The notes under the pieces were generated by a model. It did not search any database. It saw only the letters and a program-made list of their open reading frames with translations, and was not told the DNA's origin. The position numbers and the translations under genes are program-made. Source: Nitrospirota bacterium (GTDB lineage Bacteria; Nitrospirota; Thermodesulfovibrionia; UBA6902). From it: 32,962 nt of DNA. Each line of letters starts with the position of its first letter. Position 1 is the stretch's first letter. Location: positions 1-32,962 of the forward strand of contig JACRQA010000008.1 in assembly GCA_016222915.1 (NCBI GenBank), written 5' to 3'. Shown here one piece after another: positions 5,217-27,255 of this stretch.

Positions 5217-6365
5217 TTACAACTTAACTACTTCGAGGATATCTCTGAGAGGACTTTGAATATTTTCTGCGTCTTCGGCCGTCACAATAAATATCACACC
5301 TGAGAGATCAAACGGCACATCCAGGTAACGGTCGGTAAAATTCCGGTTTCTAAGGGGAGAGAGGGCCTCCATCAGGACAGATGAAAAGTCACCACTGAAA
5401 TCCCCTGCCGCCGTGTCCAGCCCCTCAAGCATAAAAAGAGGGTCTGCTGCGCCTGCAAGACGGATTTCATCAATTATGCGTCCGGGTCTCGCGTCCTCTG
5501 CCGTCCTGCCGAGCCCGATGACTTCAGACTCCACCTTCATCTCCGACAGCGACATGTTGATGAATTTTCTGTCAAGGGCGATTGCGATCATTTTACCAAG
5601 AGAGATATGTGCCTCCCGCGACGGTCCCTCAAAGCAAAGGACATTCCGCTTTCCGTTTGAATATTTCTGCCGGAGAGCGTCTTTAACGGATGAGAGTAAG
5701 TCGTCGACCCTGACAGGCTTTTCAATGTAATGAAATGCGCCCATCCTGAGGGCCTGCACAGCGGTGTCCACAGTTGCATAACCCGTAATCATGATGACCC
5801 GCGTGCCGGGATATTTGCTGATGGTTTCCTGAATAATAGCGGTCCCGTCAATTTCTCCCATTATCAGGTCGGTAATCACCAGATCAATATCTGACGTCTT
5901 CAACTTATCAATAGCTTCTGCCCCGCTGCGGGCAGTAACAACTGTATAGTCTTCCCTCTCAAGTATGTATGTTAAACTCTCGAGCGCGATCCTTTCATCA
6001 TCCACTACCAGTATCCTGGGCTTCTTATAATCATCTTTAAACATCCCGCTGAGGTGTTCCAGTATCTTCCGCCTGCTGCCTTGATCGTGCACATGCTTAT
6101 TCAATATCGTTTCAACGCCCTGAAGGTCAGGCTTGTTTGCTGCAGACTTTTTCCATGGCAGGCTGGCAAGATAACCGATGTAGCCAAGCGCGGTCAGATG
6201 TTTAGAGTCGCCGGGACTGACAGTCACCAGAGCTTCCATAGCCTCCAGCGCAGTATCGGCTAATTTCTTAACATCAGTCGGCATCCCTGCGGATGCTAGC
6301 ATTTGCTTCAGCTCCTGTATCGACAGGGAGCGAAGTCTTTTATTAAATTCTCCGAAGTCGTCCAA
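5217..6365 (-). CDS. Receiver domain embedded in a truncated, ATPase-dead Lon-like protein
   Basis: In order, this 382-residue protein has a Lon-type linker helix region (about 55-105, GYLASLPW...ILEHL), an intact receiver (about 117-232: D122/D123, phospho-acceptor D166, T194, K216) and a Lon-like AAA+ alpha/beta subdomain (about 240-380). The Walker A loop is GPSREAHIS instead of GPPGTGKTS, so the lysine is lost. Walker B reads FMLEGLD instead of LMLDELD. The protein stops where the AAA+ alpha subdomain would begin, with no protease domain. It lines up almost residue for residue with the receiver-Lon protein at 20746-22758. The TTG start at 6365 has AGGGA upstream. Likely a phospho-regulated pseudoenzyme, perhaps partnering the active paralog (inference). 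Confidence 0.85.
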   Translation of the reverse strand: MDDFGEFNKRLRSLSIQELKQMLASAGMPTDVKKLADTALEAMEALVTVSPGDSKHLTALGYIGYLASLPWKKSAANKPDLQGVETILNKHVHDQGSRRKILEHLSGMFKDDYKKPRILVVDDERIALESLTYILEREDYTVVTARSGAEAIDKLKTSDIDLVITDLIMGEIDGTAIIQETISKYPGTRVIMITGYATVDTAVQALRMGAFHYIEKPVRVDDLLSSVKDALRQKYSNGKRNVLCFEGPSREAHISLGKMIAIALDRKFINMSLSEMKVESEVIGLGRTAEDARPGRIIDEIRLAGAADPLFMLEGLDTAAGDFSGDFSSVLMEALSPLRNRNFTDRYLDVPFDLSGVIFIVTAEDAENIQSPLRDILEVVKL

Positions 6366-6439
6366 ATGTTGTCCCTGTCCGCATTGTATTCATGGTTCAC
6401 TCAACTTTCTTAAATTGCATGTAAGTATAACAGTTTATC

Positions 6440-8149
6440 ATGAAATTAAAAATCTGGCATAAAATGATCATCGGGATTACCATCCCTTCCCTGATCGCCG
6501 TCCTGGGAGGCATTCTTACCTACGGCTATATGACCGATATAAAAAATCGGCAGGGGTCCATGCGTATCGCGGACGGGTTAAAAGAAAACGTTCTCGAAAT
6601 CAGGCGAAATGAAAGAAATTTTCTCAATTACAGAGACGTTGAACATCAACAGGCCCTCCTCAACTCCATCAATACATTAAACCGGTCGCTAAATAATATC
6701 TCTCCCGGTACGTCTGAAAAGATCGCAAGGCGCGGCTTTCCCCTTCTCAGCAAAACGCGGGAACAATACGCAGACCGGACAAATAAGCTGCATGAGAATT
6801 TCCTGATAGAAAAAGAGATCGTCGAGAAAGTAAGAAAGGAAGGCGACAAGCTGGAAACACTTGTAGCGGCGAGGAAACAGGCAAAGGAACTTTCAACAGA
6901 CTTTGTGCTCCGCCTGAGACTGCTGGAAAAAAATTACATGTTTTATCGCGATAAAGAGTCTTATTCATACCTGGACAAGAGCTTGGCGCAGATAAAAAAT
7001 ATTACGCCTTTCTGTTTTGGCTGTACTCCATATATCGACTCTGTCCGCGAACTTTTCACTGTCTATACAACGAGTGATTCCCTGACGGACAGCCTCCAGG
7101 CTGCGGGCGACATGATGGAGAAAATAACAGTGGAAATAGCGGAACATGAAAGACAGAGGATCAGCTCCTTTATAGACCATACACAAAACCTGCTGCTCGC
7201 GGCCCTCATACTGCTTTTCTCATTAGGGCCGTTTTTCGTATACAAGACCGCCTCTTATATAGTGAAACCGATCAACCGTCTTGCCGAAATCACAAGGAAG
7301 ATTTCAGGGGGGGAAATAACCCTGAGGGCGCCGCTCAAAGAGCATGATGAGACCTACTCTCTTGCGGTGTCCTTCAACAGCATGCTTGACAATCTGCAGA
7401 AGACGCAGCAGTCCCTGAAAGAGAGCCTTGCCCTCCTGAATGAAAAGCAGGCCCAGCTTGTGGAATCGGAGAAGCGCGCCTCAATGGGTTTCCTCGTGGC
7501 CGGGGTGGCGCATGAATTGAACAATCCCTTGAATAATATTTCTCTCCGGGCGGAAATAGTCAATAAGGAGATCCGGAAATTTTCTGACGAAAGACTCAGC
7601 AATTACGTACAGGACATAGTCATGCAGAGTGAGCGCGCCCATAACATAATAAACAATTTACTCGACTTCGCGAGGGCCCGTAAATCAGCGGAAATGGAAA
7701 AACAGGACATGGTCCGCATTGTAAATGATTCCCTTAACCTGGTCGCCAGCCAGCTCAAAATCACCAATATAAAACTGGCAAAGGACATCCCGGACAAGAC
7801 CTTCTTTGTCAATGGAAACCGCAGCAAGCTGGAACAGATTCTTATCAGCATCATAACCAATGCCATTCAGGCCATGAAGGATTCCGGCACATTGTCCGTA
7901 GGAGTCGGAACGGATAGCACAAACCGCAATGTGCTTGTAAAAATCAGCGATACCGGAAAGGGAATACCTGAAGGTGATATTAAGAACATCTTCGAACCCT
8001 TCTTCACGACAAAGCCCCCCGGCGAAGGCACCGGCCTCGGCCTGGCGGTCAGCCAGACCCTTGTGACGGAGCATAAAGGTGAAATACTTGTTGATAGCAA
8101 AGTGGGGAGCGGATCGACGTTCACGATCAAATTACCGATGTGCTCTTAA
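6440..8149 (+). CDS. HBM-type sensor histidine kinase with conserved CxxC
   Basis: This 569-residue inner-membrane kinase has TM1 (about 9-31), a periplasmic helical sensor (32-248), TM2 (250-272), HAMP (about 273-325), HisKA with H358 in VAHELNNP, and HATPase (N474, D504-TGKG, GEGTGLGL at 528-534). The sensor carries paired motifs, RRNERNFL near 55 and [13 protein letters not shown] near 160, as in helical bimodular (HBM) sensors. It also has C192-x2-C195 followed by PY. No standalone receiver gene is adjacent. It is divergent from the dead receiver-Lon gene, with about 74 bases between, and a partner role is plausible. No clear ribosome site precedes the ATG. All catalytic boxes are intact, unlike the copy at 23211-24837. 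Confidence 0.9.
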   Translation: MKLKIWHKMIIGITIPSLIAVLGGILTYGYMTDIKNRQGSMRIADGLKENVLEIRRNERNFLNYRDVEHQQALLNSINTLNRSLNNISPGTSEKIARRGFPLLSKTREQYADRTNKLHENFLIEKEIVEKVRKEGDKLETLVAARKQAKELSTDFVLRLRLLEKNYMFYRDKESYSYLDKSLAQIKNITPFCFGCTPYIDSVRELFTVYTTSDSLTDSLQAAGDMMEKITVEIAEHERQRISSFIDHTQNLLLAALILLFSLGPFFVYKTASYIVKPINRLAEITRKISGGEITLRAPLKEHDETYSLAVSFNSMLDNLQKTQQSLKESLALLNEKQAQLVESEKRASMGFLVAGVAHELNNPLNNISLRAEIVNKEIRKFSDERLSNYVQDIVMQSERAHNIINNLLDFARARKSAEMEKQDMVRIVNDSLNLVASQLKITNIKLAKDIPDKTFFVNGNRSKLEQILISIITNAIQAMKDSGTLSVGVGTDSTNRNVLVKISDTGKGIPEGDIKNIFEPFFTTKPPGEGTGLGLAVSQTLVTEHKGEILVDSKVGSGSTFTIKLPMCS

Positions 8150-8208: not shown

Positions 8209-8799
8209 TTATTCCCCCCTGGAATTTTTCAGGTGCTCTTCGATGTTCCTGGTAATATCTATCATCAGATCTTTACCCGAAGTCGTGTAATCGGCAGTCC
8301 TGATCTCCGTTATTTCTTTTAAAGAGCGTATGACAGCGTCTATCTTTTTGGCCTCTTCCTCTATGCTGTCGAGAGAGGCTTGCACATTGGCTTCATTCCG
8401 CCTGCTCCTTCTGACCATTCCCCCGATTACTGTATTGGCATTAAGGAGATAATGAGACAGGGTGACCATAAGCCTGTGGAGAGTTTCCAGGGCAGCTTTC
8501 TTCTTCTCATTTTCGAGCTCCGCTTCATACAGGCGTTTTCTCCTGTCGATTATCATTCCTATCAACAGTCCGGTAATACTGCCGAAAAGAGCAAACGAGA
8601 CCGCCATTGGAAACATCGCAGGGTCAAAGGTCGCCTGAATAAGGGTGAAGATGCTCTTCTCATTCATATATAGACGTCCTGTGTTGTCGGGATGGTTATT
8701 CATGAAAAAACTTACAAGCATTGTATATGGATGAAACATAAGGTATCCGACAACGATACCGGTTAATGTGAAGACCATTTGTAAACGGTATCTTCTCAT
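8209..8799 (-). CDS. Two-span membrane protein with a lone kinase-like dimerisation helix
   Basis: This 196-residue protein has TM1 (about 8-30), an external loop, TM2 (about 63-85), a charged coiled coil (88-110) and a helix pair containing H116 in TLSHYLLNANTVIGG. That resembles the phospho-acceptor helix of histidine kinases. There is no ATP-binding domain, because the protein ends about 80 residues after the histidine. It could receive phosphate from another kinase, act as a phosphotransfer or phosphatase partner, or be a degenerate kinase. Convergent with the kinase at 6440-8149; no terminator is visible in the 59 bases between. The family is not recognised with certainty. Confidence 0.65.
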   Translation of the reverse strand: MRRYRLQMVFTLTGIVVGYLMFHPYTMLVSFFMNNHPDNTGRLYMNEKSIFTLIQATFDPAMFPMAVSFALFGSITGLLIGMIIDRRKRLYEAELENEKKKAALETLHRLMVTLSHYLLNANTVIGGMVRRSRRNEANVQASLDSIEEEAKKIDAVIRSLKEITEIRTADYTTSGKDLMIDITRNIEEHLKNSRGE

Positions 8800-10247: not shown

Positions 10248-12569
10248 CTAAACACAAACCTTCGGACCGTCTTTTAATGCCGGTAGCGTTATTATAAAAG
10301 TCGTCCCTGTATCGCCGGATTCTTCTTCTGTCCGCGTCTCAAATGTGATCGTCCCGCCGTATTTTGTTATGATCCCGTATGAAACAAACAGCCCCAGCCC
10401 CGTCCCTTCACCGACTTTTTTGGTAGTAAACAGTGGATCGAATATCCTGGTCCTGTGTTCTTTTTTGATCCCGCAACCGGTATCTGATATCCTCACCCCG
10501 ACTTTCTGACCCTCTTCAAAAGATGTGGAAATTGTAAGAATGCCGCCGCCCTTCATGGCGCTTGCCGCATTGCTCATAATATTAAAAAAAACCTGCTGGA
10601 GCTCTCCCGCTCCCCCTTTTACATGAGGTACACCGGGTAACAAATTCTGCTTGAAAGAGATCTTATTCAGCGAGAAAGTATTTTTCATGACAGCGATGAC
10701 AGACTCTATATTTTTATTGATGTCCACCTCTTCCACCTTCCCCTCCGCCACCCTTGTGAAGCTCAGGAGATTTTCAACGACCCTCTTCGCGTTTGTCCCG
10801 TGCTTCTCTATGGTCTTCAGGATATCGTACATTTCGGAATCCCGCGGGACCTTTTCAGACATCAGGTCCGTAAAACCGAGTATTATGGCCAGTGGATTGT
10901 TTATCTCATGCGCCACACCGGCTGCCAGGGTGCCTACCGACGCAAGCTTCTCGGTATGAAACATCTGTTCTTCCATCTTTTTACGATTGGTGATGTCTCT
11001 TGAAATGCCGAGAACTGACGAGATATTTCCTTTCTCATCCTGAAGCCCGCTGAAGTTTGTGCTGAGCCATCGCTCACTGTCGTTTATGCTGACGGAATAA
11101 ACTATCAGTTTGTTTTCTCCCGTGCTGTAAACTTCGTCGATGGCCTTAAATTGCATAAAGGCACTGCTCTCGTTATGACATATCTCTCCGATATTCTGAC
11201 CCACAAGCTCCTCTTTTGTGCTTTTAAACAACCCGCAGCCCGCCTTGTTTATGGATGTTATAACGCTGTTCCGGTCTACAGTGAAGATAATGTCGTTTGC
11301 GTTCTCTATCAACTGCCTGTACTGGTTTTCCGATTTCTTCAGCTCAACGGTCTTTTTCTCGACCTCCTGCTCCAGAGAGTGAGACCACGTAATCATCAGG
11401 GAAATGACGGTCACCCCGCCGAGAAGAAGTATTATTATAAGCAGCGACTGAAGGGAAAATTGCCGGACGTGAATTGAATGGATGGCGTTTTCCACCTCGC
11501 TTATGGGGGCGACGACCGCAATGGACCATAGCCTGTTTTCCGGCTCATTAAGATGGATGGGAGTATAAGCGATCAGCTTTTTCATCTCCCTCTCTTCCCC
11601 CTTATGCCACCCGGATATGTACCAGCTTGTCCCCTCTTTGCCCGCAAGCATCAGGTCCTTCTGTATTGAATTGATCCTTGCAAAAGAGATCGTTGGTTTC
11701 TTTTCCTTTCTTGCCTCGAACGCGTTTTTCCCGACAAAGTCCTTTTCAGGATGATAAAGGAACAGGCCGTTTTCATTCATGACCCATGCATAACCGGTTT
11801 TGCCGGACTTGATGCCCTCTGTTATCTTCTTGATCAACTGATTTGCGTCGATAACAAAAATGAGGACGCCTGAGAACCTGTCTGTCGCAACAGGATTTGC
11901 CTCGTCAACGGAAATCTGCCATACGGGGACCGCCATCTTCATTGCGAGCAATTCCCCTTTTCCGTCCCTCTTTGAATAAACGCTGATCATACTGGCTTCG
12001 CCGAGGAGTATACTGCCCTTATTTTTCACATTACCCGCCCATTTCAGGAATAGAAGATCTTCGGGATTGGTTGCGGCAATGCGGTAGCCTCCGGCATCCA
12101 AATGATGTATCTGCTGTTTCAGGGACTCGATATACCTCATTGTCACATGAGTTTGCTGAAGCATGGATTCAACGTAGCGTATTTCCATCACCCCCTGCTC
12201 CCTCACGCTTGAGAAGGTGATGCCCATCCTCTTTCCCATTGAGACTTTTTCAAAGTATTGAATGGACGGCGACAGCCCGAGCAGTGACAACTCTTTCTTC
12301 AGGAGATCCAGGCTGTTTTCTATCTGACGGGCCGCATGCTGGGCCAGGACAAGCTGCTGCTGGTTGAAGTCATTGGTCACGATCTCTTTTACTTTATTGG
12401 CATACATCCAGCCGAGTATAAGAACAGCCGCCAAAAGCATAGGGGTGAGGACCGCCATTAAAACCTGGACAACACTGAGGTGGAAAAGGCGGTATTTCTC
12501 TACCAGATGGAGTATTAAACTCCTGAGTGACGGATTAGTGATGTTGTCTTTATTAAATAAGTCTGCCAT
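10248..12569 (-). CDS. dCache-PAS sensor histidine kinase
   Basis: The 773-residue kinase has TM1 (about 33-57), a large periplasmic double-Cache-like sensor (about 60-360, including GYAWVMNENGLFLYHP near 259-274), TM2 (375-396) and a PAS domain (about 412-528, ending GISRDITNRK). HisKA follows with H554 in VAHEINNPLA, then HATPase with N667, D696-TGCG and GEGTGLGL near 720-727. All kinase boxes are intact. It lies between the tandem USP gene (12626-13480) upstream and the receiver gene (9757-10179) downstream, all on the same strand. Cache sensors usually bind small organic molecules; the ligand here is unknown. Confidence 0.9.
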   Translation of the reverse strand: MADLFNKDNITNPSLRSLILHLVEKYRLFHLSVVQVLMAVLTPMLLAAVLILGWMYANKVKEIVTNDFNQQQLVLAQHAARQIENSLDLLKKELSLLGLSPSIQYFEKVSMGKRMGITFSSVREQGVMEIRYVESMLQQTHVTMRYIESLKQQIHHLDAGGYRIAATNPEDLLFLKWAGNVKNKGSILLGEASMISVYSKRDGKGELLAMKMAVPVWQISVDEANPVATDRFSGVLIFVIDANQLIKKITEGIKSGKTGYAWVMNENGLFLYHPEKDFVGKNAFEARKEKKPTISFARINSIQKDLMLAGKEGTSWYISGWHKGEEREMKKLIAYTPIHLNEPENRLWSIAVVAPISEVENAIHSIHVRQFSLQSLLIIILLLGGVTVISLMITWSHSLEQEVEKKTVELKKSENQYRQLIENANDIIFTVDRNSVITSINKAGCGLFKSTKEELVGQNIGEICHNESSAFMQFKAIDEVYSTGENKLIVYSVSINDSERWLSTNFSGLQDEKGNISSVLGISRDITNRKKMEEQMFHTEKLASVGTLAAGVAHEINNPLAIILGFTDLMSEKVPRDSEMYDILKTIEKHGTNAKRVVENLLSFTRVAEGKVEEVDINKNIESVIAVMKNTFSLNKISFKQNLLPGVPHVKGGAGELQQVFFNIMSNAASAMKGGGILTISTSFEEGQKVGVRISDTGCGIKKEHRTRIFDPLFTTKKVGEGTGLGLFVSYGIITKYGGTITFETRTEEESGDTGTTFIITLPALKDGPKVCV

Positions 12570-12625: not shown

Positions 12626-13480
12626 CTACCGCACAATTAACACGGGACACGGGGCGTAACCAATGACCTTTTCCGTCACGCTTCCCATGAGTATTTTTCT
12701 TATCCCGGTCCTTCCGTGACTTCCCATCACAATGACATCGGCGTTTCCCTGTTTGGCGAGGTCCGTTATTACCCTGAACGTTTCGCCTTCACGGACAAAT
12801 GTCTCGATATTTATATTTAACGCATCAGCCTTTTCTTTTACGGCCTGAGTAAATCCATTTGCCTCTCTGACCATTCGTTCTACCATTTCCGGGGCCTGAG
12901 CGAGGAACTCGTCGGTAACATCCACTGAACATACGGCCTTAATGTTTCCATTGTAAGATTTTGCCAGGTCCATCGCCTTGTCTGCGGCTGCAACACTGTA
13001 CCTTGATCCGTCGGTAGCGAGGACTATGCTGTTCCATCCGACGGATGAATTCCCAGGGACTACAAGGACATCAATGGAGCTATGCCCGATGATACGCGCG
13101 GCCACGCTTCCGATGAGGGCCTTTTCGAACCTGGTTACGCCGTGCCTGCCCACAACTATCAAATCATATCCCCCGTCCTCGGCAAAATCTATTATGCCCT
13201 GGAAAGGAACGCCTTCTTCAACGCGCGTTCGTATAAAGATGTCCTCCTGACGCGCAAGCTCTTCTATGCCGGAGATTATTTTTTCACCTTCTTCATGAAG
13301 TTTCCTGGCGACCTTTTCTTTTATGCTGAGCACCTCGATCTGGTCCTGATAAAGCGGAATTACCGTTATGGCGGTAATCCAGCTTTTATCGTCCCGGACG
13401 ATCTTGCAGGCCTGGCTGAAGGCATTCCTGCTTGAATCAGATCCATCGACCCCAACAAGGATTTTTCTGTACCGTCCCAT
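12626..13480 (-). CDS. Tandem universal stress protein (two UspA domains)
   Basis: This 284-residue cytoplasmic protein has two UspA folds, about 1-140 and 147-284. Both hold the ATP-type pattern G-x2-G-x9-G-S: GRHGVTRFEKALIGS in the first and GSHGRTGIRKILMGS in the second, and both start with an Asp-containing strand (VGVDGS, LATDGS). USPs bind ATP and support survival under starvation, oxidative or redox stress. It is very similar to the tandem protein at 27256-28110, and both precede a related receiver gene in their operons. It is the probable first gene of the operon that continues with the Cache-PAS kinase. Confidence 0.9.
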   Translation of the reverse strand: MGRYRKILVGVDGSDSSRNAFSQACKIVRDDKSWITAITVIPLYQDQIEVLSIKEKVARKLHEEGEKIISGIEELARQEDIFIRTRVEEGVPFQGIIDFAEDGGYDLIVVGRHGVTRFEKALIGSVAARIIGHSSIDVLVVPGNSSVGWNSIVLATDGSRYSVAAADKAMDLAKSYNGNIKAVCSVDVTDEFLAQAPEMVERMVREANGFTQAVKEKADALNINIETFVREGETFRVITDLAKQGNADVIVMGSHGRTGIRKILMGSVTEKVIGYAPCPVLIVR

Positions 13481-13573
13481 TAAATGACCATAATTGAATT
13501 AATAAAATTGGTATACAGAAGACAAAAGGATTTTAACATTCAAACACCGGACTGTTCAATTACTTTTTAAGCA

Positions 13574-13606
13574 TAAAAAAAGGGCGGGTTTAAAAACCCG
13601 CCCTTT
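13574..13606 (-). terminator. Strong Rho-independent terminator after the TSUP operon
   Basis: GGGCGGGTT (13582-13590) pairs with AACCCGCCC (13595-13603), extended by flanking A/T pairs. On the minus strand the stem is followed by seven or more U residues (the A run at 13574-13581). It begins about 10 bases past the stop of the membrane protein gene at 13617. Confidence 0.9.
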
Positions 13607-13616
13607 CGGAAATGCA

Positions 13617-14330
13617 TTACGCCTCTTTCTTGACCTTCGCCTTCTTCATGCTGAGGCCAAGTCCGTCAAAGATATAGAATATCGCATATCCCCACCACAT
13701 GGTATATGCAACATAAAATATGAGAAGACCGGACATCATGCCTGCATGGTCTACAACCTTATTTGCTTCAATATGATAGAAATTGTATCCCGGCTCTATC
13801 CCTTTCTTGATAACGTCTGAGACGACCTTTGCCTCAGCGATCTGCTTTTCTTTTTTAAGCTCTTTGTCGAACTTGGTCAGGGCGGCCCACCAGTTTTTCA
13901 TGACCGTCTTTTCATCATATCCATAACGGTCTGACACTGCCTTGCCGTCATTTTTGTACATCGCGTCGGCATCCTTCAATGCGCTTGTAAGTATCGCACC
14001 TAGGTCGCCCTGTATCTTCAATTGAGTGTCCTGGGTCTCTACCGTCGCGCCTGCGGTTGTGAATAGCTTTGCGGTATTTTCAACGTCCTCAGCCTTTTCA
14101 AGTTTGACGCTCAGAGACAAGGTCTTGCCATTGACCTTTTCAACCGACTTGGCCACCTTCGGGATGAAGTATGACGAGCCCTTTGAAAGCTTGTTGAACA
14201 TGTCATCCGAAAACACAAGACCGTTCTTGCCGCCGGGAAATACAGGCGAGAAGATCAATACCAGTACTGATAAGAACGATATGGCCAACACGACGCCCAT
14301 ACTGAACATTTTCTTATTTCTTACTATCAT
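13617..14330 (-). CDS. Membrane-anchored protein with large extracytoplasmic domain, TSUP-linked
   Basis: The 237-residue protein has TM1 (about 8-30), an extracytoplasmic region of about 165 residues and a C-terminal TM (about 198-222) rich in aromatics (VAYTMWWGYAIFYIF), ending in a lysine-rich tail. I do not recognise the domain. The ATG at 14330 starts one base after the TSUP stop, and its ribosome site GGAGGTG lies within the end of that gene, so the two are tightly coupled. It may be an accessory subunit or sensor for the exporter. It is the last gene before the terminator at 13574-13606. Confidence 0.75.
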   Translation of the reverse strand: MIVRNKKMFSMGVVLAISFLSVLVLIFSPVFPGGKNGLVFSDDMFNKLSKGSSYFIPKVAKSVEKVNGKTLSLSVKLEKAEDVENTAKLFTTAGATVETQDTQLKIQGDLGAILTSALKDADAMYKNDGKAVSDRYGYDEKTVMKNWWAALTKFDKELKKEKQIAEAKVVSDVIKKGIEPGYNFYHIEANKVVDHAGMMSGLLIFYVAYTMWWGYAIFYIFDGLGLSMKKAKVKKEA

Positions 14331-14331
14331 G

Positions 14332-15499
14332 TTACACCTCCTCCTTTACAAGCACGGGAGCTACACTTTCATCTTCTCCTCTTAGGGTGCCTATATTTAC
14401 AACGAACTTGCCTATGACCCATGCCGCAAAAGCCGCAACAACTACCCAGAATATTACATTGCCGGCTGATTCAATGCCTTTGACAACAGGTTTAGACCAG
14501 TTGATGACTTCAAGATCAACAAGCTTTTTTGGAAGTGTTGCCGCCCTGTTAATAAAGCCTGCTAGAATTGATACTGCATAGAAACCTCTGATGTGAATGC
14601 CTTTAACAACCTTGGTTGTAAGCGCTCCTATCTGAATGCCGATGAGTGAGCCGAGAAGCATCCCAATTGCCAACGTGTAAAAAACATAACCGTAAATCGC
14701 ATACTGGGTTGTTGCGGCGAGACCTGCTGTGAAGATGATCTGGAGAATGTCCGTGCCGACAGTCGTCATTGAAGAAACACCGAATACATAGACGAACATC
14801 GGGAAAGTGATAAACCGGGGGTATTTTTACATTCTGCACTTTAACAGAGAGGTTCGTCATCCCTGCTGAACCGCCGTGGGCATCGCCCGTGTCTTTTGAT
14901 TTTCTTGATTTAAGAAAGTCTGCCAAAGCATAGAATCCCAGGAAGCCCAGAAGCACCGCGTAGATAAGGCTGATAAAAGCCTCGCTCAGGTTCGGGTCAT
15001 AGTCATAGAGACCCTTGTTGATCGCGCCGCCTATGAATGTCCCGCCTGCGGAGCCTACGAGGAATGCTATAGCCAGTTTGACAGACACATTGCCTAGCTT
15101 TTTATGGACCGCTGTTCCCATGATTGCTTTTGCAAAGATATGAAAAAGGTCTGTCCCTACCGCGAGTATCCCTTTTACGCCCGCTGCCATCAAGGCCGGT
15201 GTAATAATGAATCCTCCTCCTGCGCCGATACAACCTGTAATCAGTCCTGCACATAATCCGATAGCAATCGAGATCAAGAAAATATTTGTGGAATAAAATG
15301 CCGGCGCATATGCTGTCTTACTGCCGATCATGTCTCCCGCTTGAAGCGCAGAAACTGCTATAATCGGAAGAAGCATTATGAAAAGTATCCACATCTTCTT
15401 CCTCTGCTTTAAAATACTCATTGAGACTTCATAGTCCCATTTGGCGTGAGCAATTGACGCCATCTTCAGAAACTCGAACACACGTCTTCCCGTTCCCAT
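14332..15499 (-). pseudogene. TSUP (TauE/SafE-like) anion exporter, single-base frameshift
   Basis: The N-terminal frame runs from ATG 15499 (MGTGRRVFEFLK) through the first TSUP half, with GLCAGLITGCIGAGGGFIITP as signature. It goes out of frame at NVKIPP. The next frame continues with FITFPMFVYVFGVSSMTTVGTDILQ to the natural C-terminus at 14332. The shift lies in a run of five G on the plus strand (14817-14821). Removing one base joins both halves into a 388-residue protein, like the intact paralog at 26165-27253. AAGGAGG precedes the ATG. TSUP proteins export sulfite, sulfonates or related anions; the substrate here is unknown. It may be a true inactivation or a sequence error. Confidence 0.85.
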
Positions 15500-15565
15500 T
15501 TTGATTGGTCCTCCTTAATTAAATATTGAATCTTGAATTTTAATTTTGTATTGTTGTTATTTCAT

Positions 15566-16051
15566 TTATGCCGGGAGCGGCGCTTCATTTTTTGAAACAA
15601 CCACCAGCGGACATTTTAATTTCTTCCACGCGTCAGACAGTTTTCTTTCACCCCCTTTACATTCGACCTCTAGTTCAAATTTTGAACCGACAATAACAAA
15701 AAGTATTTCGCTCCTCTTGTACGTATAATCGAGAATCGCCTGTTTGACGCACCCGATTTTCATTACAAGACTGAACCTGAATCCTTCCGTCTTTACTTCA
15801 GATAAAAAGTTGTTCAGATTTACTCTCTCTCTCTCAAAAGGGGTCACGTACAGGACTTCCAGCACCGCATTTGTCCTCTGGCTGACATTCAACGCGTATT
15901 TAAGTGCGCTCCTGTCAAAGAGGCTGTCGGAGATTGCAAGAAGGACCGTCTTCTGACCTTTATGGATCTCTCTTGCCGTTTCGAACTCTCCGGCTTCGGC
16001 AAAGGCGGCCGCCGCCATTGTGTCCCCGATTTTCCTGATGACCTTTTTCAT
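15566..16051 (-). CDS. USP-like protein with N-terminal AFAEAGE segment
   Basis: The 161-residue protein starts with KIGDTMAAAAFAEAGEFETA (8-27), the same segment found in the free small proteins encoded directly upstream. From about 34 it has a USP-like alpha/beta fold (KTVLLAISDSLFDRSALKYAL to CPLVVVSKN), but it lacks the G-x2-G-x9-G-S ATP loop, so it is probably a non-ATP USP type. It lies between the two small genes (upstream) and the TSUP gene (downstream, 66 bases), all in one direction. The fusion suggests the segment and the USP domain work together. Ribosome site weak (AGAGAG). Confidence 0.7.
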   Translation of the reverse strand: MKKVIRKIGDTMAAAAFAEAGEFETAREIHKGQKTVLLAISDSLFDRSALKYALNVSQRTNAVLEVLYVTPFERERVNLNNFLSEVKTEGFRFSLVMKIGCVKQAILDYTYKRSEILFVIVGSKFELEVECKGGERKLSDAWKKLKCPLVVVSKNEAPLPA

Positions 16052-16082
16052 TCAGTCTCTCTGCAATAATAGTTAAAGGTTA

Positions 16083-16250
16083 TTATTTCCCCGGCGCCCT
16101 TAACTGGGTACGAGGTCTTTTGGTGACCTGCTTTCTCTTCTGGTCCCTTTTTTCTTCTCTCATGATTTCTTCGGCAGTCTCATGCTCTCCTGCCTCCGCG
16201 AATGCCGCTGCTGCGTAAACGTCCTCTAATTTCTTCAGAAACTTTTTCAT
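16083..16250 (-). CDS. Small AFAEAGE protein, tandem copy A
   Basis: This 55-residue protein has a basic N-terminus (MKKFLKKLED), the core VYAAAAFAEAGEHETAEEI (11-29) and a charged, basic tail ending QLRAPGK. No membrane span, signal or known domain. The ribosome site AAGGAGG is well placed before the ATG at 16250. It is 14 bases downstream of an almost identical gene (copy B), showing a recent tandem duplication, and 31 bases upstream of the USP-like gene that carries the same core. A third relative is at 25679-25846. Function unknown; the likely structure is a helical hairpin. Confidence 0.75.
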   Translation of the reverse strand: MKKFLKKLEDVYAAAAFAEAGEHETAEEIMREEKRDQKRKQVTKRPRTQLRAPGK

Positions 16251-16264
16251 GGTTCCCTCCTTAC

Positions 16265-16423
16265 CTAAGCCCTTAACTGGGTGCCCGGTCTTTTTGTGAT
16301 CTGTTTTCTGGTCTGGTCCCTTTTCTCTTCCCTTATACTTCCCATAGCAGTCTCATGCTCTCCTGCCTCCGCGAATGCCGCTGCTGCATAAACGTCCTCT
16401 AATTTTTTCAGAAGCTTTTTCAT
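16265..16423 (-). CDS. Small AFAEAGE protein, tandem copy B
   Basis: This 52-residue protein (MKKLLKKLED, VYAAAAFAEAGEHETAMGSI, tail ending GTQLRA) is nearly the same as copy A in its first 26 residues, then differs by a few substitutions and a shorter C-terminus. AAGGAGG precedes the ATG at 16423. As the first gene after a candidate sigma-54 promoter, it probably opens the operon small B, small A, USP-like, TSUP, membrane protein. The first 26 codons differ from copy A only at scattered positions. Confidence 0.75.
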   Translation of the reverse strand: MKKLLKKLEDVYAAAAFAEAGEHETAMGSIREEKRDQTRKQITKRPGTQLRA

Positions 16424-16488
16424 GGTTCCCTCCTTTTTATTGTTAGGTTAAATTTTTTCTTTTAATGATTGGATAATGCATCTTCTAT

Positions 16489-16504
16489 ATCACGATCCGT
16501 GCCA
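16489..16504 (-). promoter_or_regulatory. Candidate sigma-54 promoter of the small-protein/TSUP operon
   Basis: The minus strand reads TGGCACGGATCGTGAT. The -24 block TGGCACG is perfect, but the -12 block has GA where GC is expected. It lies 65 bases upstream of copy B. Support comes from the better site at 31960-31975 before another operon of the same type. Confidence 0.35.
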
Positions 16505-16815
16505 GGATTGATGAATGGTATAACTATCTAATTTAATGACGTTTTACTCGTAAAGCACCTGGCTGAAAAAAGGGAGCGATTGTTGCAGTTTGCAATTAGC
16601 GAATAAACAAGAGGTATACTCACTATCCTGGAATGAACCGGCAACATTATGAAACAAAAAGGAATTTACCCATATTTCCCCTGAGCTGAAACAACTCTGT
16701 TGCATCATAATAGCCAGGGATTGCATAATGCAACAAATATGAGTTATGCTTTCTAAACAGCAAGTTCCTGATACAATGCACCTGCCCCAACTGAATGAAA
16801 GGACATAAATAACCA
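16505..16815. promoter_or_regulatory. Divergent regulatory region with TTGCAT inverted repeats
   Basis: Between the small-protein operon (minus) and the sigma-54 activator (plus) lie TGTTGCAT at 16698-16705 and its inverted match ATGCAACA at 16728-16735, plus the 13-base palindrome TTGCATAATGCAA at 16721-16733. A further TTGCAGTTTGCAA-like pair is near 16583. These could be activator sites serving one or both directions. No gene is seen in this 311-base stretch. Confidence 0.4.
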
Positions 16816-18180
16816 ATGGACGGCACTGCCAAAGTACTTATAGTTGACGATGAAAAGATCACGCTTAAAAACCTGGTGCACGCTATGAAAAAAGAAGGCT
16901 ATGAAGTCGTCGGCACCAATAACAGCGCCAATGCCATTAAATATATTGATGAGCAGGAATTCGATGTCGTGCTGACGGACATACGCATGGACAAGGTAGA
17001 CGGAATGCAGATACTTAAAAAATGCAGGGAGCTTTATCCCGATGCCGCTGTCGTCATGATGACGGGCTACGCAACGATCCAGTCCGCAACAGGCGCGATA
17101 AAACAGGGCGCACATGATTATATAGCCAAGCCTTTCAAACTGGATGAAGTGAGGAAGGTCATAAGAGAGGCAATTGAAAAGGTCAAGCTGAAAAAGGAAA
17201 ACTCTCAACTCAGAGAACAGATCGAGCAATATGAAGGGAAGGTCAAGATCATCACTCAGGATACAAACATGCAGAGGGTCCTTGATACAGCCAGGCAGAT
17301 CGCCCCGACAGACTGTAACGTGCTGATTTCAGGTGAGAGCGGGACCGGCAAGGAACTGTTTGCAAGATACATTCATATCAACAGCAAGCGCGCGGACGGT
17401 CCTTTTTTTGCGGTCAACTGCGGTGCCTTCACAGAGGAGTTGCTGACTAACGAGCTCTTCGGTCATGAAAAGGGGGCCTTCACCGGCGCGAATTCAATGA
17501 AGAACGGACTGATAGAAATGGCGTCAGGAGGCACCTTGCTGCTGGATGAGATAACGGAAATGCCGCCCTCGATGCAGGTGAAGTTATTGAGGGTCATCCA
17601 GGAAAAAGAGGTCCTCCGGCTCGGGGCCACAAAACCGATAAGCGTTGACGTGAGATTCGTGGCCGCTACCAACAGAGATATCCATGACGAAATAAAGACC
17701 GGCAGGTTCAGGCAGGACCTGTATTTCAGGCTGAATGTTGTCTCCCTCCGTGTCCCGCCTCTCTCGGAGAGAAAAGACGACATTCCTCTGCTTGGCTATT
17801 ATTTCCTGAAAAAATACTCAGCGCTTATGAAGAAAAACATCAGGGACATATCCCAGGATGTGATAGCCATCCTGATGAATTACGATTTCCCCGGCAATGT
17901 GAGGGAACTGGAAAACATCATGGAAAGAGGGGTGGCCCTCACAAACAGCGAAAAAATGGAAATTGCCCATTTGCCCGATGACCTTAAGGAATTGAGCATA
18001 AGGACGTTCAGAAAGAAAGAAGGCAAGATACCTTCTCTTGAAGAACAGGAGACGGCTTATATCAACTGGGTATTGAAAGAGGTCGGCGGCAACAGGACGG
18101 TCGCAGCCCAGGTGCTCGGCATCGACAGGGTGTCGCTCTGGAGGAAATTAAAGAAATACGGCTTTGAAGAAAGTCCCTAG
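16816..18180 (+). CDS. NtrC-family sigma-54-dependent response regulator
   Basis: This 454-residue activator has a receiver (1-120; D11/D12, phospho-acceptor D55, T83, K105), a linker coil (about 122-142), a sigma-54 AAA+ domain (about 145-375; Walker A GESGTGKE 173-180, sigma-54 contact loop GAFTGA 220-225, Walker B LLLDE 241-245) and a C-terminal Fis-type helix-turn-helix (about 425-450, GGNRTVAAQVLGIDRVSLWRKL). All key residues are intact. It stands alone, divergent from the small-protein/TSUP operon, and may control that operon's sigma-54-like promoter. Its kinase partner is not adjacent. Confidence 0.93.
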   Translation: MDGTAKVLIVDDEKITLKNLVHAMKKEGYEVVGTNNSANAIKYIDEQEFDVVLTDIRMDKVDGMQILKKCRELYPDAAVVMMTGYATIQSATGAIKQGAHDYIAKPFKLDEVRKVIREAIEKVKLKKENSQLREQIEQYEGKVKIITQDTNMQRVLDTARQIAPTDCNVLISGESGTGKELFARYIHINSKRADGPFFAVNCGAFTEELLTNELFGHEKGAFTGANSMKNGLIEMASGGTLLLDEITEMPPSMQVKLLRVIQEKEVLRLGATKPISVDVRFVAATNRDIHDEIKTGRFRQDLYFRLNVVSLRVPPLSERKDDIPLLGYYFLKKYSALMKKNIRDISQDVIAILMNYDFPGNVRELENIMERGVALTNSEKMEIAHLPDDLKELSIRTFRKKEGKIPSLEEQETAYINWVLKEVGGNRTVAAQVLGIDRVSLWRKLKKYGFEESP

Positions 18181-18186
18181 CTCTCT

Positions 18187-18204
18187 AAAGCCTAAGGCCT
18201 TTTT
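18187..18204 (+). terminator. Weak terminator-like hairpin after the sigma-54 activator
   Basis: AAAGCC-TAA-GGCCTTT forms a 6-bp stem with one bulged base and runs into TTTTT on the plus strand, starting 7 bases after the activator stop. It overlaps the end of the convergent USP gene. Confidence 0.35.
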
Positions 18205-19085
18205 ACGACCAGCACAGCGCATTCGGAAAGTCCGATGACCCTCTCTGTCACGCTTCCCATCAGGAGTTTTGCAAGGCCGGTCCTGCCGTGACTGCCGACT
18301 ATTATAAGATCAGTCCTGTTTTCTTTGGCACTCTCGATGACCGCATCATATGGCCTGCCGGCAAGGATAAATCCACTTACACTGATCCCTTCCTTTTCAG
18401 CCTTTGTCTTTGCGGCTTTGACATTCTTTTCAGCGGCCTTGCTTTCTTCATCCGAAATAAGACCTTTATGCATTTCTGAATGGACTATATCAAACGGGGA
18501 TTCAGTATCGGACGGCACAACGGAAATTATGACCAGGTTGGAACCGCAACGTTTTGCAATCTCAATCGCTTCGGAAACAGCAGCTTCACTGTATCCTGAC
18601 CCGTCGGTGGCGACAAGGATGTTTTTAAATCCTATCCGGGCGGCCCTCGGAACGACGAGTACGCTGCACGGTGAATGCCCGATCACCCTTGCTGTCTCGC
18701 TCCCCATTATCAGTCTCTTGAGGCCTTTTCTCCCGCGCCTGCCCATAATTATCATAGAGGCTTTGTTTTTAGATGCCTCTTCGGTTATGTATTGATAAGC
18801 GTCTTCACCCTGGCGCGCGATAATGTCACAATCAATCCCTTCCTTTGAAGCGCGCTCTTTTACCGATTCGAGTACCGATCTGGTCTGTTTTTCAGCCTTC
18901 TCGACAAGCTGGGGCGCGATGGTCTCATATTCCGGATTTGTCTCAACAACCGAGACGACAAGAAGTTGCGACGAGCACCGCTTTGCAAGGCTGATGGCTT
19001 CCCTGACAGCGCCTTCGCTGAATTCGGAGCCGTCTGTTGACAAGAGGAGTTTTTCAAGTTTTGTCGGACAGAATTGATCGGTCAT
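18192..19085 (-). CDS. Tandem universal stress protein, second subtype
   Basis: This 297-residue protein has two UspA domains (about 10-145 and 152-297). Each carries G-x2-G-x9-G-S: GRRGRKGLKRLIMGS and GSHGRTGLAKLLMGS. It is more distant from the tandem USPs at 12626 and 27256 than those are from each other. The ATG at 19085 comes one base after the stop of the 139-residue membrane gene, with GGAGGA inside that gene's end, so the two are coupled. It is the last gene of a TSUP, small membrane protein, USP operon. Confidence 0.9.
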   Translation of the reverse strand: MTDQFCPTKLEKLLLSTDGSEFSEGAVREAISLAKRCSSQLLVVSVVETNPEYETIAPQLVEKAEKQTRSVLESVKERASKEGIDCDIIARQGEDAYQYITEEASKNKASMIIMGRRGRKGLKRLIMGSETARVIGHSPCSVLVVPRAARIGFKNILVATDGSGYSEAAVSEAIEIAKRCGSNLVIISVVPSDTESPFDIVHSEMHKGLISDEESKAAEKNVKAAKTKAEKEGISVSGFILAGRPYDAVIESAKENRTDLIIVGSHGRTGLAKLLMGSVTERVIGLSECAVLVVKRP

Positions 19086-19086
19086 A

Positions 19087-19506
19087 TTAGTGTCCTCCTA
19101 CTTTAAGGATACCGCTTGCGGCAAGCGCCAGCACCGCCACTTCGAGTATTGCAATTATCACGTATGGCGTATCTTTCTTCCTTAAAAGGATCGGCAATAT
19201 AGCTAGGTAACACACAATAGTCAGTCCGGCAAGCATGGCGATCCCGACAAAATTCATATAGTCCCCTTTGCCTGCCATGGCAACCCATCCCCATCCTGTC
19301 GGAGCGTTCAGCACGTGGATATAATCCTTTGCCTTCATCCCCCAGTAGTTAGGCAGCTCTTCTATAGGAACAAAAGACTGAAATATTCCTGAAACATATA
19401 TGATAAAAGTGAATGTCAGCACTGCTAATCCGAACCACATACCGATGTTTAGAATATTTGCGTATGCAATCTGTTCTTCAGAAGCCTTTACTTTTTCATT
19501 GCTCAT
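19087..19506 (-). CDS. Three-span membrane protein between TSUP and USP (DUF1634-like?)
   Basis: The 139-residue protein has predicted spans at about 19-41, 86-108 and 114-134, with a hydrophilic external loop in between. Its length, the span after YANILNIG and the LPILLRKKDTPYVIIAI segment recall DUF1634, a family often encoded beside TSUP exporters; this is a resemblance, not a firm assignment. AAGGAG precedes the ATG. It lies 56 bases after the TSUP gene, with an 11-bp palindrome in that gap, and overlaps the ribosome site of the USP gene. Confidence 0.7.
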   Translation of the reverse strand: MSNEKVKASEEQIAYANILNIGMWFGLAVLTFTFIIYVSGIFQSFVPIEELPNYWGMKAKDYIHVLNAPTGWGWVAMAGKGDYMNFVGIAMLAGLTIVCYLAILPILLRKKDTPYVIIAILEVAVLALAASGILKVGGH

Positions 19507-19524
19507 TTTCTATTCTCCTTTAAA

Positions 19525-19547
19525 ACCGTTCAAACCGTTTGAACGGT
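19525..19547. repeat. Perfect palindrome ACCGTTCAAAC-C-GTTTGAACGGT (copy 2)
   Basis: Two 11-base arms are perfectly complementary around one central base. It is placed between the TSUP stop (19563) and the ribosome site of the 139-residue membrane gene. A near copy is at 9211-9229. The tiny spacer favours a protein operator, although an RNA hairpin that tunes downstream expression is possible. There is no U tail. Confidence 0.6.
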
Positions 19548-19562
19548 CCGATTATTTAATCC

Positions 19563-20531
19563 TTACTTCCAGATGCCGAGCCCTTTAAGTAATGCCCTCA
19601 AACCTGCAAAGAGCAGAAGTCCGATGACCATCCATTTGATGGCCTTTGGTTTTGTCCTGGCCAATATTTTTACTCCGACCATCGAGCCAAGCATTATTCC
19701 TACTATGGACGGTGCAACGATCATTGGCAGGACTGCTCCTTCATTCAGGTAAATCCATGCCGCGGATGTGTCCGTTATCGAGAGCAGGAACTTGCTTGTC
19801 GCTACAGATACTTTCAAGGGGGCGCCCATCATAAGATTAAGCACCGGCACATTGGCCCAGCCTGCGCCAAGTCCGAACATTCCTGCCATTACCCCTATAA
19901 TAATAAACATAAACAAAGCCTGCGGTGTTTTATGGACCTTCCACTCAACATCTTTTCCGAGTGATTGCTCGGTGTATATTCCGGTAATCGCGAGACTCTG
20001 TGACAGGGCGTCCGCTTTTGGAACATTAGGGAAATCGGATTTTTTGGCAAGGGCCATGATGAGCACAATAAAAAGAATAGTGGCCCCAAGCAAAGTCTGT
20101 ATAACATTTTGAGGTAATGCAAGGCCGATCAATGCCCCGCCTATTGCCGCTGCCGAGGCGATCAAGGCAACAGGCAACGCCAGACGGAGACTTGCAAGAT
20201 TTCTTTTTAACAGGCCGGGGCCTGCGGCAAGTGCGCCTGCAAGCGCCACAAGGAGTCCGGCCCCTCTGACGAAGTCGAGATTGAAGGGGTAGAACCCACC
20301 GATAATCGGAACGAACAATACACCCCCTCCTACTCCTCCGAGCACGGCCACAATACCGAGGACAAAGGTAACAACCAGAAGAGAAAGGGGCCATACCCAC
20401 CACGCAACATTTGAAGCTGCAGCAGCAGGGAGCGCCTCAGACGCTTCAGTCGAAGCAAATACTGTAACTGCCCCGGCAATCAGGACCAGGGAGACAGCCA
20501 GGAAAATTAAGACTCTCGTAGTTTTAGACAT
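19563..20531 (-). CDS. TSUP (TauE/SafE-like) anion exporter
   Basis: This 322-residue protein has an N-terminal signal-like span (about 8-26), a short Ala-rich external stretch and then eight or so spans in two TSUP halves. The first half has GGVGGGVLFVPIIGGF and the second has AGMFGLGAGWANVPVLNLMMGAP, the paired glycine-rich signatures of the family. It is intact and not closely related to the TSUP proteins at 14332 and 26165. GGAAGG precedes the ATG. It leads an operon with the three-span protein and the tandem USP. Its substrate is unknown, though sulfur oxyanions are the usual family cargo. Confidence 0.88.
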   Translation of the reverse strand: MSKTTRVLIFLAVSLVLIAGAVTVFASTEASEALPAAAASNVAWWVWPLSLLVVTFVLGIVAVLGGVGGGVLFVPIIGGFYPFNLDFVRGAGLLVALAGALAAGPGLLKRNLASLRLALPVALIASAAAIGGALIGLALPQNVIQTLLGATILFIVLIMALAKKSDFPNVPKADALSQSLAITGIYTEQSLGKDVEWKVHKTPQALFMFIIIGVMAGMFGLGAGWANVPVLNLMMGAPLKVSVATSKFLLSITDTSAAWIYLNEGAVLPMIVAPSIVGIMLGSMVGVKILARTKPKAIKWMVIGLLLFAGLRALLKGLGIWK

Positions 20532-20745
20532 TTTGTTCGTCCTTCCGTGTATTAAGAATATTTTTTGAAGAGCTTGATTGCTTCACTTTGAATCAATGTT
20601 GTTGTAATTTGAAACATAAATAATATAAGGATTTGACCGGACTAAATCAATATAAATTTTGTTATACTGAGTTAAAAATAATTTATTTATATCAGATAAA
20701 TTGTACAGTAACGCATGATTTTGTTTATCATCATATACAACGAAA
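20532..20745. promoter_or_regulatory. AT-rich divergent promoter region of TSUP and receiver-Lon genes
   Basis: This 214-base AT-rich gap must hold promoters in both directions. TATACT near 20670 and TTGACC near 20634 are promoter-like on the plus strand, but their spacing (24 bases) is wrong for a single sigma-70 site. No sigma-54 pattern was found. There is no clear ribosome site before the receiver-Lon ATG. Confidence 0.3.
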
Positions 20746-22758
20746 ATGAATTTTTTCAGAAAATCCGACGATAAACTTCAGGCAGAGACCATTAATGAAT
20801 TGAGGCAGAAGGTGAGCTCCGCCGGCCTGCCTCATCATGTGCTGGACGTTGCAAATTCCGAAATAGACATGCTCTCAAGGATAAGCCCGACCGTTGCAGA
20901 ATATACAATAGGGCTTTCTTACCTGGATTACTTGACCGGGCTTCCATGGAACAAGAAGACAGAGGACAATCTTGATATTGAAAGGGCGGCAAAAATCCTG
21001 GATGAAAGACATTACGGTTTACAGGAGATCAAACAGAGAATACTGGAGCACCTTGCAGTCAAGATACTTACGTCCCACAAAAAACCGAGTGTGCTGGTAG
21101 TCGATGACGAGAAGATTGTGACCAGGAACCTAGAGCATTCATTGAAAAAAGAGGGGTACGCGGTAATGACCGCAAACAGCGGCGGTGAGGCCTTTGCCAG
21201 GCTTGAGGATTTCGCCTTTGACGTTGTAATAACAGACCTGAAGATGGAGAAGATCAGCGGACTGGATGTGCTTGAAAAGGCAAAGCTGAAATATCCGGAC
21301 ACGCAGGTCATCCTGATTACCGGCTACGCTACAATCGACTCGGCAGTGGATTCCATAAAGAAGGGGGCCTTTCATTACCTTTCAAAGCCGTTCAATCTCG
21401 ACGACGTCCGTTCAGCGGTAAAAAAGGCGCTTGAGAAAAAAGTCTTTGACAGGGCCACAAAGGGTTCGGTGCTTTGCTTCTCAGGACCGCCGGGAACAGG
21501 GAAAACTTCACTGGGAAAGGCCATAGCAGATGCCCTGGGCAGAAAATTCGCGAGGATCTCTTTGGGCGGCATTAAAGATGAAGCGGAAATAAGAGGGCAC
21601 AGAAGGACATACGCCGGCGCAATGCCCGGCCGTATTATCGATGAGATCAACAGGCTTGGGTCTTGCAACCCCGTGCTTATGCTTGACGAGCTGGACAAGA
21701 TGGGGCAGGATTTCAAAGGAGATCCGGCGTCGGCGCTTCTGGAGGCCCTGGATCCGGAGCAAAACAAAAATTTCATAGACCATTATATTGATATACCTTT
21801 TGACCTCTCAAGCGTAATGTTCATTGTGACGGCCAATATCGCAGACAATATTCAGGACGCGCTTAGGGACCGTATGGAGGTCATAGAGTTCTCCGGATAC
21901 ACTGAGGACGAAAAGAGCCATATCGCCCTGCAATATCTCGTTCCCAAACAAACTCATTTAAAAGGCCTTTCGGAATCTCCTCCCGAATTTACGCCGGATG
22001 CTATAACAAAAATCATTCATGAATATACCCGGGAGGCGGGCATCAGGAACCTTGAGAGACAGGTCGCCGCAGTCTGCCGGAAGATCGCCTCGGATTTTGT
22101 CCGTAACAAAGAGTCGGCCATGAACATAAAAATAACGCCCGATATCGTGGACAAATATCTTGGAATGGGCAGGTACCAGCACGAAATAGCTGACGAGGAA
22201 AACAGGACAGGCGTCACCACCGGTCTGGTCTGGACCGAAACCGGAGGTGAGATCATCTTTGTTGAGACCGTAAAAATGAAAGGCAAAGGGGGGCTTATTC
22301 TTACCGGATCTCTCGGAGATGTTATGCGCGAATCGGCTCAGGCCGCCCTGAGTTATATAAGGAGCAATGCCGCGTCGCTCGGCATCGAAGACAATTTCTT
22401 TGAGGCGCAGGACATACATGTGCATGTTCCAGCCGGGGCCATCCCGAAAGACGGTCCTTCAGCCGGGGCCACTATTGCGGTCTCACTGGTATCTCTTTTA
22501 ACGGGAAGACCTGTAAGAAGGGATGTCGCAATATCAGGAGAGCTGACATTGACCGGAAGACTGCTGCCCGTTGGAGGAGTAAAGGAGAAACTGCTGGCAG
22601 CCCGCCGTGCCGGAGTTAAGATAGTGGCCCTGCCTGTGAAAAACAAAGCTGATATTGAAAGTCTCGCGCAGGACGCAAAGAAAGGCATTGATATCAGGTT
22701 TGCCGACAGGATAGATGATTTTATCAGTCTGGCGCTTGAAGCGCCGGGGATTAAATAA
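20746..22758 (+). CDS. Lon protease with an embedded response-regulator receiver domain
   Basis: The 670-residue protein has a Lon linker helix region (about 55-105, YLDYLTGLPW...HYGLQEIKQRILEHLAV). A complete receiver (115-232: D120/D121, phospho-acceptor D164, T192, K214) is inserted where ordinary Lon has only about ten residues before Walker A. The Lon AAA+ module follows (Walker A G247-PPGTGKT, Walker B LMLDE 311-315, sensor-2 GIRNLER), then the S16 protease domain with catalytic S572 (PKDGPSAG) and K613 (GGVKEK). The usual N-terminal substrate-binding domain of about 200 residues is absent. All catalytic residues are present, so this should be an active, phosphorylation-tuned protease. 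A dead paralog is at 5217-6365. Confidence 0.92.
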   Translation: MNFFRKSDDKLQAETINELRQKVSSAGLPHHVLDVANSEIDMLSRISPTVAEYTIGLSYLDYLTGLPWNKKTEDNLDIERAAKILDERHYGLQEIKQRILEHLAVKILTSHKKPSVLVVDDEKIVTRNLEHSLKKEGYAVMTANSGGEAFARLEDFAFDVVITDLKMEKISGLDVLEKAKLKYPDTQVILITGYATIDSAVDSIKKGAFHYLSKPFNLDDVRSAVKKALEKKVFDRATKGSVLCFSGPPGTGKTSLGKAIADALGRKFARISLGGIKDEAEIRGHRRTYAGAMPGRIIDEINRLGSCNPVLMLDELDKMGQDFKGDPASALLEALDPEQNKNFIDHYIDIPFDLSSVMFIVTANIADNIQDALRDRMEVIEFSGYTEDEKSHIALQYLVPKQTHLKGLSESPPEFTPDAITKIIHEYTREAGIRNLERQVAAVCRKIASDFVRNKESAMNIKITPDIVDKYLGMGRYQHEIADEENRTGVTTGLVWTETGGEIIFVETVKMKGKGGLILTGSLGDVMRESAQAALSYIRSNAASLGIEDNFFEAQDIHVHVPAGAIPKDGPSAGATIAVSLVSLLTGRPVRRDVAISGELTLTGRLLPVGGVKEKLLAARRAGVKIVALPVKNKADIESLAQDAKKGIDIRFADRIDDFISLALEAPGIK

Positions 22759-22764
22759 ATATGC

Positions 22765-23145
22765 TCAGGTTGCTTTCAGCCCGGTCTCCGCTTTCTTGAC
22801 TGCTTTATAAAGCTCCTCAAACTTGAACGGCTTTACAAGAAAATCGGAAGCCCCTTTATTCAAGGCTTCGTCTATGGTTTGCTGGTCTCCGAACCCGGTA
22901 ATGATAATGACCCTGGTCCCGGCGTTTTTCTTAACAGCGGCATCCAGGACTTTCATCCCGTCGACATTCCCCATCATAAGGTCCGTGACGATGATGTCAA
23001 AATGTTTTTTCTCCAGCGCCTCAATCGCAGAAACGCCATCAAGAAAGGTCTCAACGGCGTAGCCTTCTTTTTCAAACATGCGTTTCAGCCTTTTCCCCAC
23101 AATAGGCTCATCGTCTATTATCATAAGCTGTAATCCGGCTGTCAT
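22765..23145 (-). CDS. Single-domain response regulator
   Basis: This receiver has no output domain: MTAGLQLMIIDDEP start, phospho-acceptor Asp in IIVTDLMMG, T in IIITGFG and K in FLVKPF, all intact. I chose ATG 23145, where a receiver normally begins, with AGGA close upstream. A longer form from GTG 23211 would add 22 basic residues and overlap the kinase stop by one base (TAGTG), allowing translational coupling. It follows a histidine kinase gene that is now broken, so its original phosphate donor is probably lost. It is convergent with receiver-Lon, six bases apart. Confidence 0.85.
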   Translation of the reverse strand: MTAGLQLMIIDDEPIVGKRLKRMFEKEGYAVETFLDGVSAIEALEKKHFDIIVTDLMMGNVDGMKVLDAAVKKNAGTRVIIITGFGDQQTIDEALNKGASDFLVKPFKFEELYKAVKKAETGLKAT

Positions 23146-26163: not shown

Positions 26164-26164
26164 G

Positions 26165-27253: not shown

Positions 27254-27255
27254 CG

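Follow-up and report, generated by a model that had tools for sequence, protein, structure and literature searches.

CpdR, a lone receiver that carries no pseudo-AAA domain, governs an AAA+ protease under phosphorylation control. RssB, the response-regulator adaptor of ClpXP, consists of a receiver and an output with an enzyme fold that has no active-site residues, and it acts by protein binding (PMC7226468). In Desulfovibrio vulgaris, the Lon-type response regulator DVU3303 works with the kinase DVU3304 and the NtrC-type regulator DVU3305 (PMC3333781). This association also occurs in Thermodesulfovibrio (PMC3333781). Within the DVU3303-3305 system, for which cofitness above 0.9 has been reported (PMC10102598), the sigma-54 NtrC-type regulator controls UspA-type and anion-transporter genes (PMC3333781; PMC10102598). 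The active receiver-Lon is, by virtue of DVU3303, already known. A literature search on receiver-Lon fusions, with most subscription papers outside its scope, returned just Desulfovibrio papers and no catalytically dead form, and a search for pseudoenzyme AAA+ response regulators gave no match.

The stretch of DNA analysed here (the window; 32,962 nucleotides) encodes both an active receiver-Lon and a short, dead relative of it (Table 1). The 382 residues of the dead protein match the first 382 residues of the 670-residue active twin, with 173 of 385 aligned positions identical (45%) and six gaps (BLASTP, E=3e-108), which bears out the original prediction of an almost gap-free alignment over the first 380 residues. 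The two share the domain order Lon three-helix bundle, receiver and AAA core, after which the active twin continues with the lid and the Lon_C protease; a receiver fused to a competent Lon, as in DVU3303, is thus found in the twin and not in the dead protein. The start codon of the dead gene recurs in two relatives (G036 and G034). Another open reading frame of the window, at 10248-12569, was rejected as a counterpart since it has no similarity to the dead protein and is a histidine kinase.

Table 1. Features of the dead receiver-pseudo-Lon locus and its active twin, in window coordinates.
Feature	Position	Strand	Details or evidence
Dead receiver-pseudo-Lon CDS	5217..6365	-	382 aa, TTG start
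Lon-type 3-helix bundle, residues 1-113, ahead of the AAA module	6027..6365	-	Twin alignment; all-helical model; 4ypn match
Receiver domain, residues 116-232, inserted between helical bundle and AAA	5670..6020	-	Pfam PF00072 Response_reg 4.7e-28; catalytic residues intact
Phospho-acceptor Asp166 codon	5868..5870	-	Invariant in alignment; 10/10 dead forms
Pseudo-AAA alpha/beta domain, residues 240-382, without lid or protease	5220..5648	-	phmmer 1e-31 to solved Lon chains
Degenerate Walker A GPSREAHIS (active twin: GPPGTGKTS)	5601..5627	-	Sequence comparison
Degenerate Walker B MLEGLD (active twin: MLDELD)	5415..5432	-	Sequence comparison
Intergenic region between divergent dead gene and kinase	6366..6439	.	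Relatives ~100 bp longer
Membrane histidine kinase (HAMP, HisKA, HATPase_c), divergent partner of the dead form	6440..8149	+	Pfam; clade; co-occurrence; specificity covariation
Active receiver-Lon twin, 670 aa, all ATPase and protease residues present	20746..22758	+	Alignment, motif check

That the dead protein has lost the Walker A lysine, carries EG in place of the Walker B DE and stops before the protease had been noted from the sequence of the window, and all of this was confirmed. Three losses go beyond that description, namely the sensor-1 asparagine (TAED versus TANI in the active twin), the arginine finger (PLRDILE versus ALRDRME) and the pore-loop tyrosine (GRTAEDARPG versus RRTYAGAMPG); the arginine finger and the pore loop we take to lie at these positions from what is known of E. 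coli Lon. Neither Pfam nor a motif check found an S16 protease domain with its Ser-Lys dyad in the dead protein, whose open reading frame ends before the lid. Of the hallmarks of LonA, the Lon-type AAA alpha/beta fold is present and the Walker A GxxxxGKT and Walker B DE are missing. The receiver is intact, as was claimed: D122, D123, D166, T194 and K216 are all present, and the set expected of a response regulator (DD, D, T/S and K) occurs in all ten dead forms known to us. The NCBIfam RssB model matches the dead protein solely in the receiver part (residues 117-234), and no homology to the PP2C-fold output domain of RssB was found; the dead form would work like RssB without being a member of that family.

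An AlphaFold2 model built from eight sequences has a mean pLDDT of 78 (~78-92 in the AAA part) and a pTM of 0.42, and because the latter is low the arrangement of the domains is uncertain. The top solved match of this model in Foldseek is the LonA fragment 4ypn, which comprises a three-helix bundle and an AAA alpha/beta domain, the two pieces of Lon that the dead protein keeps. However, 4ypn is a crystallisation construct of an active protease, whereas the dead protein is natural, has a receiver inserted between both pieces and has a dead ATP site.

Relatives were sought in Thermodesulfovibrionia and Nitrospirota assemblies and in whole genomes. Ten short dead forms were collected, from the genome of the window (G000) and from G033, G034, G036, G020, G003, G010, G011 and G021, the last of which has two. 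Catalytic ATPase motifs are degenerate in every one of them and intact in all sampled active receiver-Lons, one of which, G038, breaks off ahead of the protease. Counted with their upstream extension, the frames of the dead forms measure 375-394 codons, and all stop directly after the AAA core. Among the matches listed for 230 class genomes and 396 phylum genomes, every short form came from the family of the window; one listing ended below the housekeeping-Lon scores and the other search used a strict threshold, so dead forms of great divergence may have escaped. The active receiver-Lon has a wider range, across the class and into one further family of the phylum. In a tree of 55 proteins the ten dead forms lie, on long branches, on one side of one branch (84/77 support), which lends moderate support to a single origin and indicates that the dead gene is an old lineage and not a recent copy of the active gene beside it. 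Within the genus the dead gene has a dS of 0.57-1.29, resembling its kinase (0.69-1.09) and neighbouring genes, and the active copies are at or near dS saturation between the same genomes.

Two further genes of this kind deserve mention. The second short form of G021 (L087:356-1522, minus strand) keeps the GK of Walker A, is divergent from a different kinase and has its place in the tree beside the active forms, which points to a possible separate loss. At L037:10001-10825, a gap of 34 N interrupts a dead-like gene behind its receiver, and a GatA-like frame follows on; this looks like a scaffolding fault, and owing to the gap the gene is not counted among the ten.

If the dead form were a simple decaying duplicate, it might be absent from close relatives or show uniformly relaxed substitution over its receiver and AAA parts. 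The presence of dead forms in relatives favours a retained function. The one departure is a congener, G035, in which we found neither the dead form nor its kinase; the genes that flank the pair in the window sit on separate G035 contigs, and the pair is not beside them. The substitution rates also favour a retained function. In the genus, omega is 0.05-0.10 for the dead receiver (strong constraint) and 0.16-0.26 for the pseudo-AAA domain (moderate constraint), and the N-terminal part of the dead form is relatively fast (0.2 or more). The bootstrap upper limits for the pseudo-AAA domain, 0.28-0.40 in the three pairs tested, indicate that constraint persists there, at a looser level than in the receiver or in the neighbouring genes, for which omega is 0.05-0.10. 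Relative to dS it evolves about three times faster than those neighbours, and its role may therefore be a loose one.

The pattern of conservation is reversed between the two forms. Over six genus pairs, dead receivers are 86-93% identical and active ones 61-77%, whereas the AAA parts are 66-75% identical between dead forms and 84-92% between active forms (Fisher p of 1.7e-4 to 1.7e-11 for each pair, the pairs not being independent). Together with the intact receivers in 10/10 dead forms and the intact ATPase sites in 0/10, this reversal upholds the view that selection kept signalling and not catalysis.

A spacer of 74 bp separates the start of the kinase gene from the dead gene on the opposite strand. 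Orthologues of the kinase divergently adjoin a dead form in nine cases (the window, G033, G034, G036, G003, G010, G011, G020 and L037) and form one clade with 99/99 support; the orthologue of G021 is on another contig and falls in the same clade (100/98 with G021 added). Full-length matches at an identity of at least 60% occur in exactly those 10 of 37 family genomes that have the main dead lineage, a count that takes in G009, where the dead gene is cut by the N gap. A constant neighbour of the dead forms other than the kinase was sought and none was found, the neighbours differing between genera. Near individual dead forms we observed a KefB-type antiporter in G021 and G003 (L086 and L082), molybdopterin-oxidoreductase-type genes in G011 and citrate synthase in G020, all of them named by reading the sequences and not by a Pfam scan. 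Beside the kinase in the window, 8209-8799 (minus strand) encodes a membrane protein with a possible histidine-bearing helix and, by Pfam, no kinase ATPase domain, which could be a phosphotransfer protein.

The positions that set specificity between kinases and receivers have been established in published two-component studies. Here, position His+12 of the kinase was compared with the sixth residue after the second Asp of the receiver's acidic pair. The kinase has Arg at His+12 in the window, G033, G034, G036, G003, G020 and G021, where the dead receiver has Glu or Asp; in G010 and G011 a kinase Thr or Ala is paired with a receiver Lys, and in L037/G009 a kinase Val with a receiver Ser. The readable paralogous kinases near active receiver-Lons have Thr, Ala or Ile at His+12, and most active receivers carry Lys or Arg at the compared position. 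This covariation, with residues that differ in the active twin, speaks for an insulated pair of dedicated partners and against the suggestion, made in the original prediction, that the dead form competes for the kinase of its twin. Judged by genome association and covariation, the divergent gene would be the cognate kinase of the dead form. At the level of sequence comparison, the locus reveals a conserved response regulator with a dead ATPase, which co-evolves with a kinase of its own.

In relatives, the region between the two genes contains a conserved element, TTTACT-N17-TATACT, with an extended -10, that faces the dead gene. We considered a binding site for a regulator, but the element is more readily understood as an extended -10 promoter of the dead gene itself. 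The window keeps just the -10 half (~6421-6434), as ~100 bp kept in three congeners are missing from 6366-6439; this loss in a shared promoter region could mean weakened expression in the window, or an assembly fault. Set against its intact orthologue in G035, the kinase nearest the active receiver-Lon (23443-24840, minus strand) is also 98 bp short in the ATP-binding part; the reading frame shifts as a result, and the protein is truncated. That two losses of similar size, ~100 bp, lie in one contig (6366-6439 and ~23480) suggests that they may be an assembly artefact. More widely, window positions 12626-32485 hold a large stress-type cluster of repeated universal stress proteins, TauE-type transporters, paralogous kinases and NtrC-type regulators, which looks like an expanded DVU3298-3305 system.

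Several explanations of the dead protein have to be weighed. Lost ATPase motifs, a fast N-terminal part and a shortened promoter in the window are what a duplicate on its way to a pseudogene would display; however, the split from the active form is ancient, the open frames have near constant length across several genera, and both the receiver and the pseudo-AAA domain are under purifying selection. On these grounds we reject a recent duplicate in decay and, as the kinase has also been kept in step with the dead form, consider decay of any kind, already disfavoured, highly improbable. The receiver, the best conserved part, might instead drain phosphate from the kinases of the stress cluster, several paralogues of which are encoded in the window, with the remainder of the protein as ballast. 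This we think improbable given that the dead form has its own kinase with a co-varying interface, that omega for the pseudo-AAA domain is not near 1, and that the end point of the protein is conserved across several genera.

It had also been suggested that the dead form joins or poisons the active hexamer. As a regulatory or poisoning subunit it would enter the hexamer of the receiver-Lon or of the housekeeping Lon and block or gate it according to its phosphorylation state. The three-helix bundle and AAA core that it keeps are parts of the Lon assembly, and the dead gene lies on the same contig as the active twin, ~10-18 kb away, in the window, G036 and G034. Yet with the lid, the protease and the arginine finger, most of the hexamer contacts generally known from Lon structures are gone, and the specificity residues of the dead and active receivers differ. 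Moreover, counting Lon_C domains detected no receiver-Lon in three draft genomes that have the dead form, G003 (92% complete), G011 (99%) and G021 (88%). Drafts can suggest such an absence without proving it, though G011 is close to complete, and a function that needs the receiver-Lon is unlikely to be the general one. In G020, a contig-end fragment with an NtrC-type gene downstream is probably a receiver-Lon. Neither poisoning of the active hexamer nor competition for its kinase thus holds as a general function, and in genomes with both forms, or with the housekeeping Lon as target, we regard a subunit role as unlikely.

Given that the protease and ATPase residues are lost, and that the receiver and its own kinase have long been kept together across several related genera, we believe that the dead protein most likely acts by binding proteins and not by cutting them. 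Our preferred reading, at a probability of roughly 0.6, is that it is an RssB-like response regulator that makes up a two-component system with its own kinase and has the pseudo-AAA domain as a protein-binding output, and we infer that it signals via phosphorylation-dependent binding. The kinase would phosphorylate Asp166, which would rearrange the three-helix bundle relative to the pseudo-AAA domain; in this way its hold on a partner protein would be switched, in the manner of RssB and its inactive phosphatase domain. Candidates for that partner are, in the first place, the housekeeping Lon or, where present, the receiver-Lon, in which case the dead form would be an adaptor or anti-adaptor of a Lon protease. 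The fuller version of this proposal, that the phosphorylation-gated pseudo-AAA domain docks on the housekeeping Lon (or receiver-Lon) and redirects or blocks it, with Lon controlled in trans, is offered tentatively and has, in our estimate, a small chance of being right.

Should a Lon protease be the target, the dead form would provide an uncommon case of Lon being controlled in trans by a two-component system. The dead form is a natural case of an ATP-dependent protease turned into a non-catalytic signalling protein, in which the genome often still holds the active ancestor type as well, and in which the specificity of the kinase partner changed along with the protein. It also supplies clean pairs of sequences with which to follow changes in kinase specificity once a gene has been duplicated.

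How does this locus compare with the described systems? The active twin, with its NtrC-type, Usp and TauE neighbours, resembles the DVU3303-3305 system. In contrast to DVU3303, which is a Lon-type protease, the dead form has no ATPase site, lid or protease and has its own divergent kinase. With CpdR-type adaptors it would share the role of a phosphorylation-controlled receiver protein governing an AAA+ protease, its protease partner being a candidate, but unlike them it carries a pseudo-AAA domain. RssB would be the nearest functional model, as the dead form likewise combines a receiver with an inactive enzyme fold as output. In RssB, however, that output is a PP2C-like pseudo-phosphatase, whereas the dead form has a Lon-derived pseudo-AAA domain and a Lon helical bundle before the receiver. 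The dead form is a parallel to RssB that arose from another enzyme, and this suggests that new response regulators have repeatedly come about by way of outputs derived from dead enzymes.
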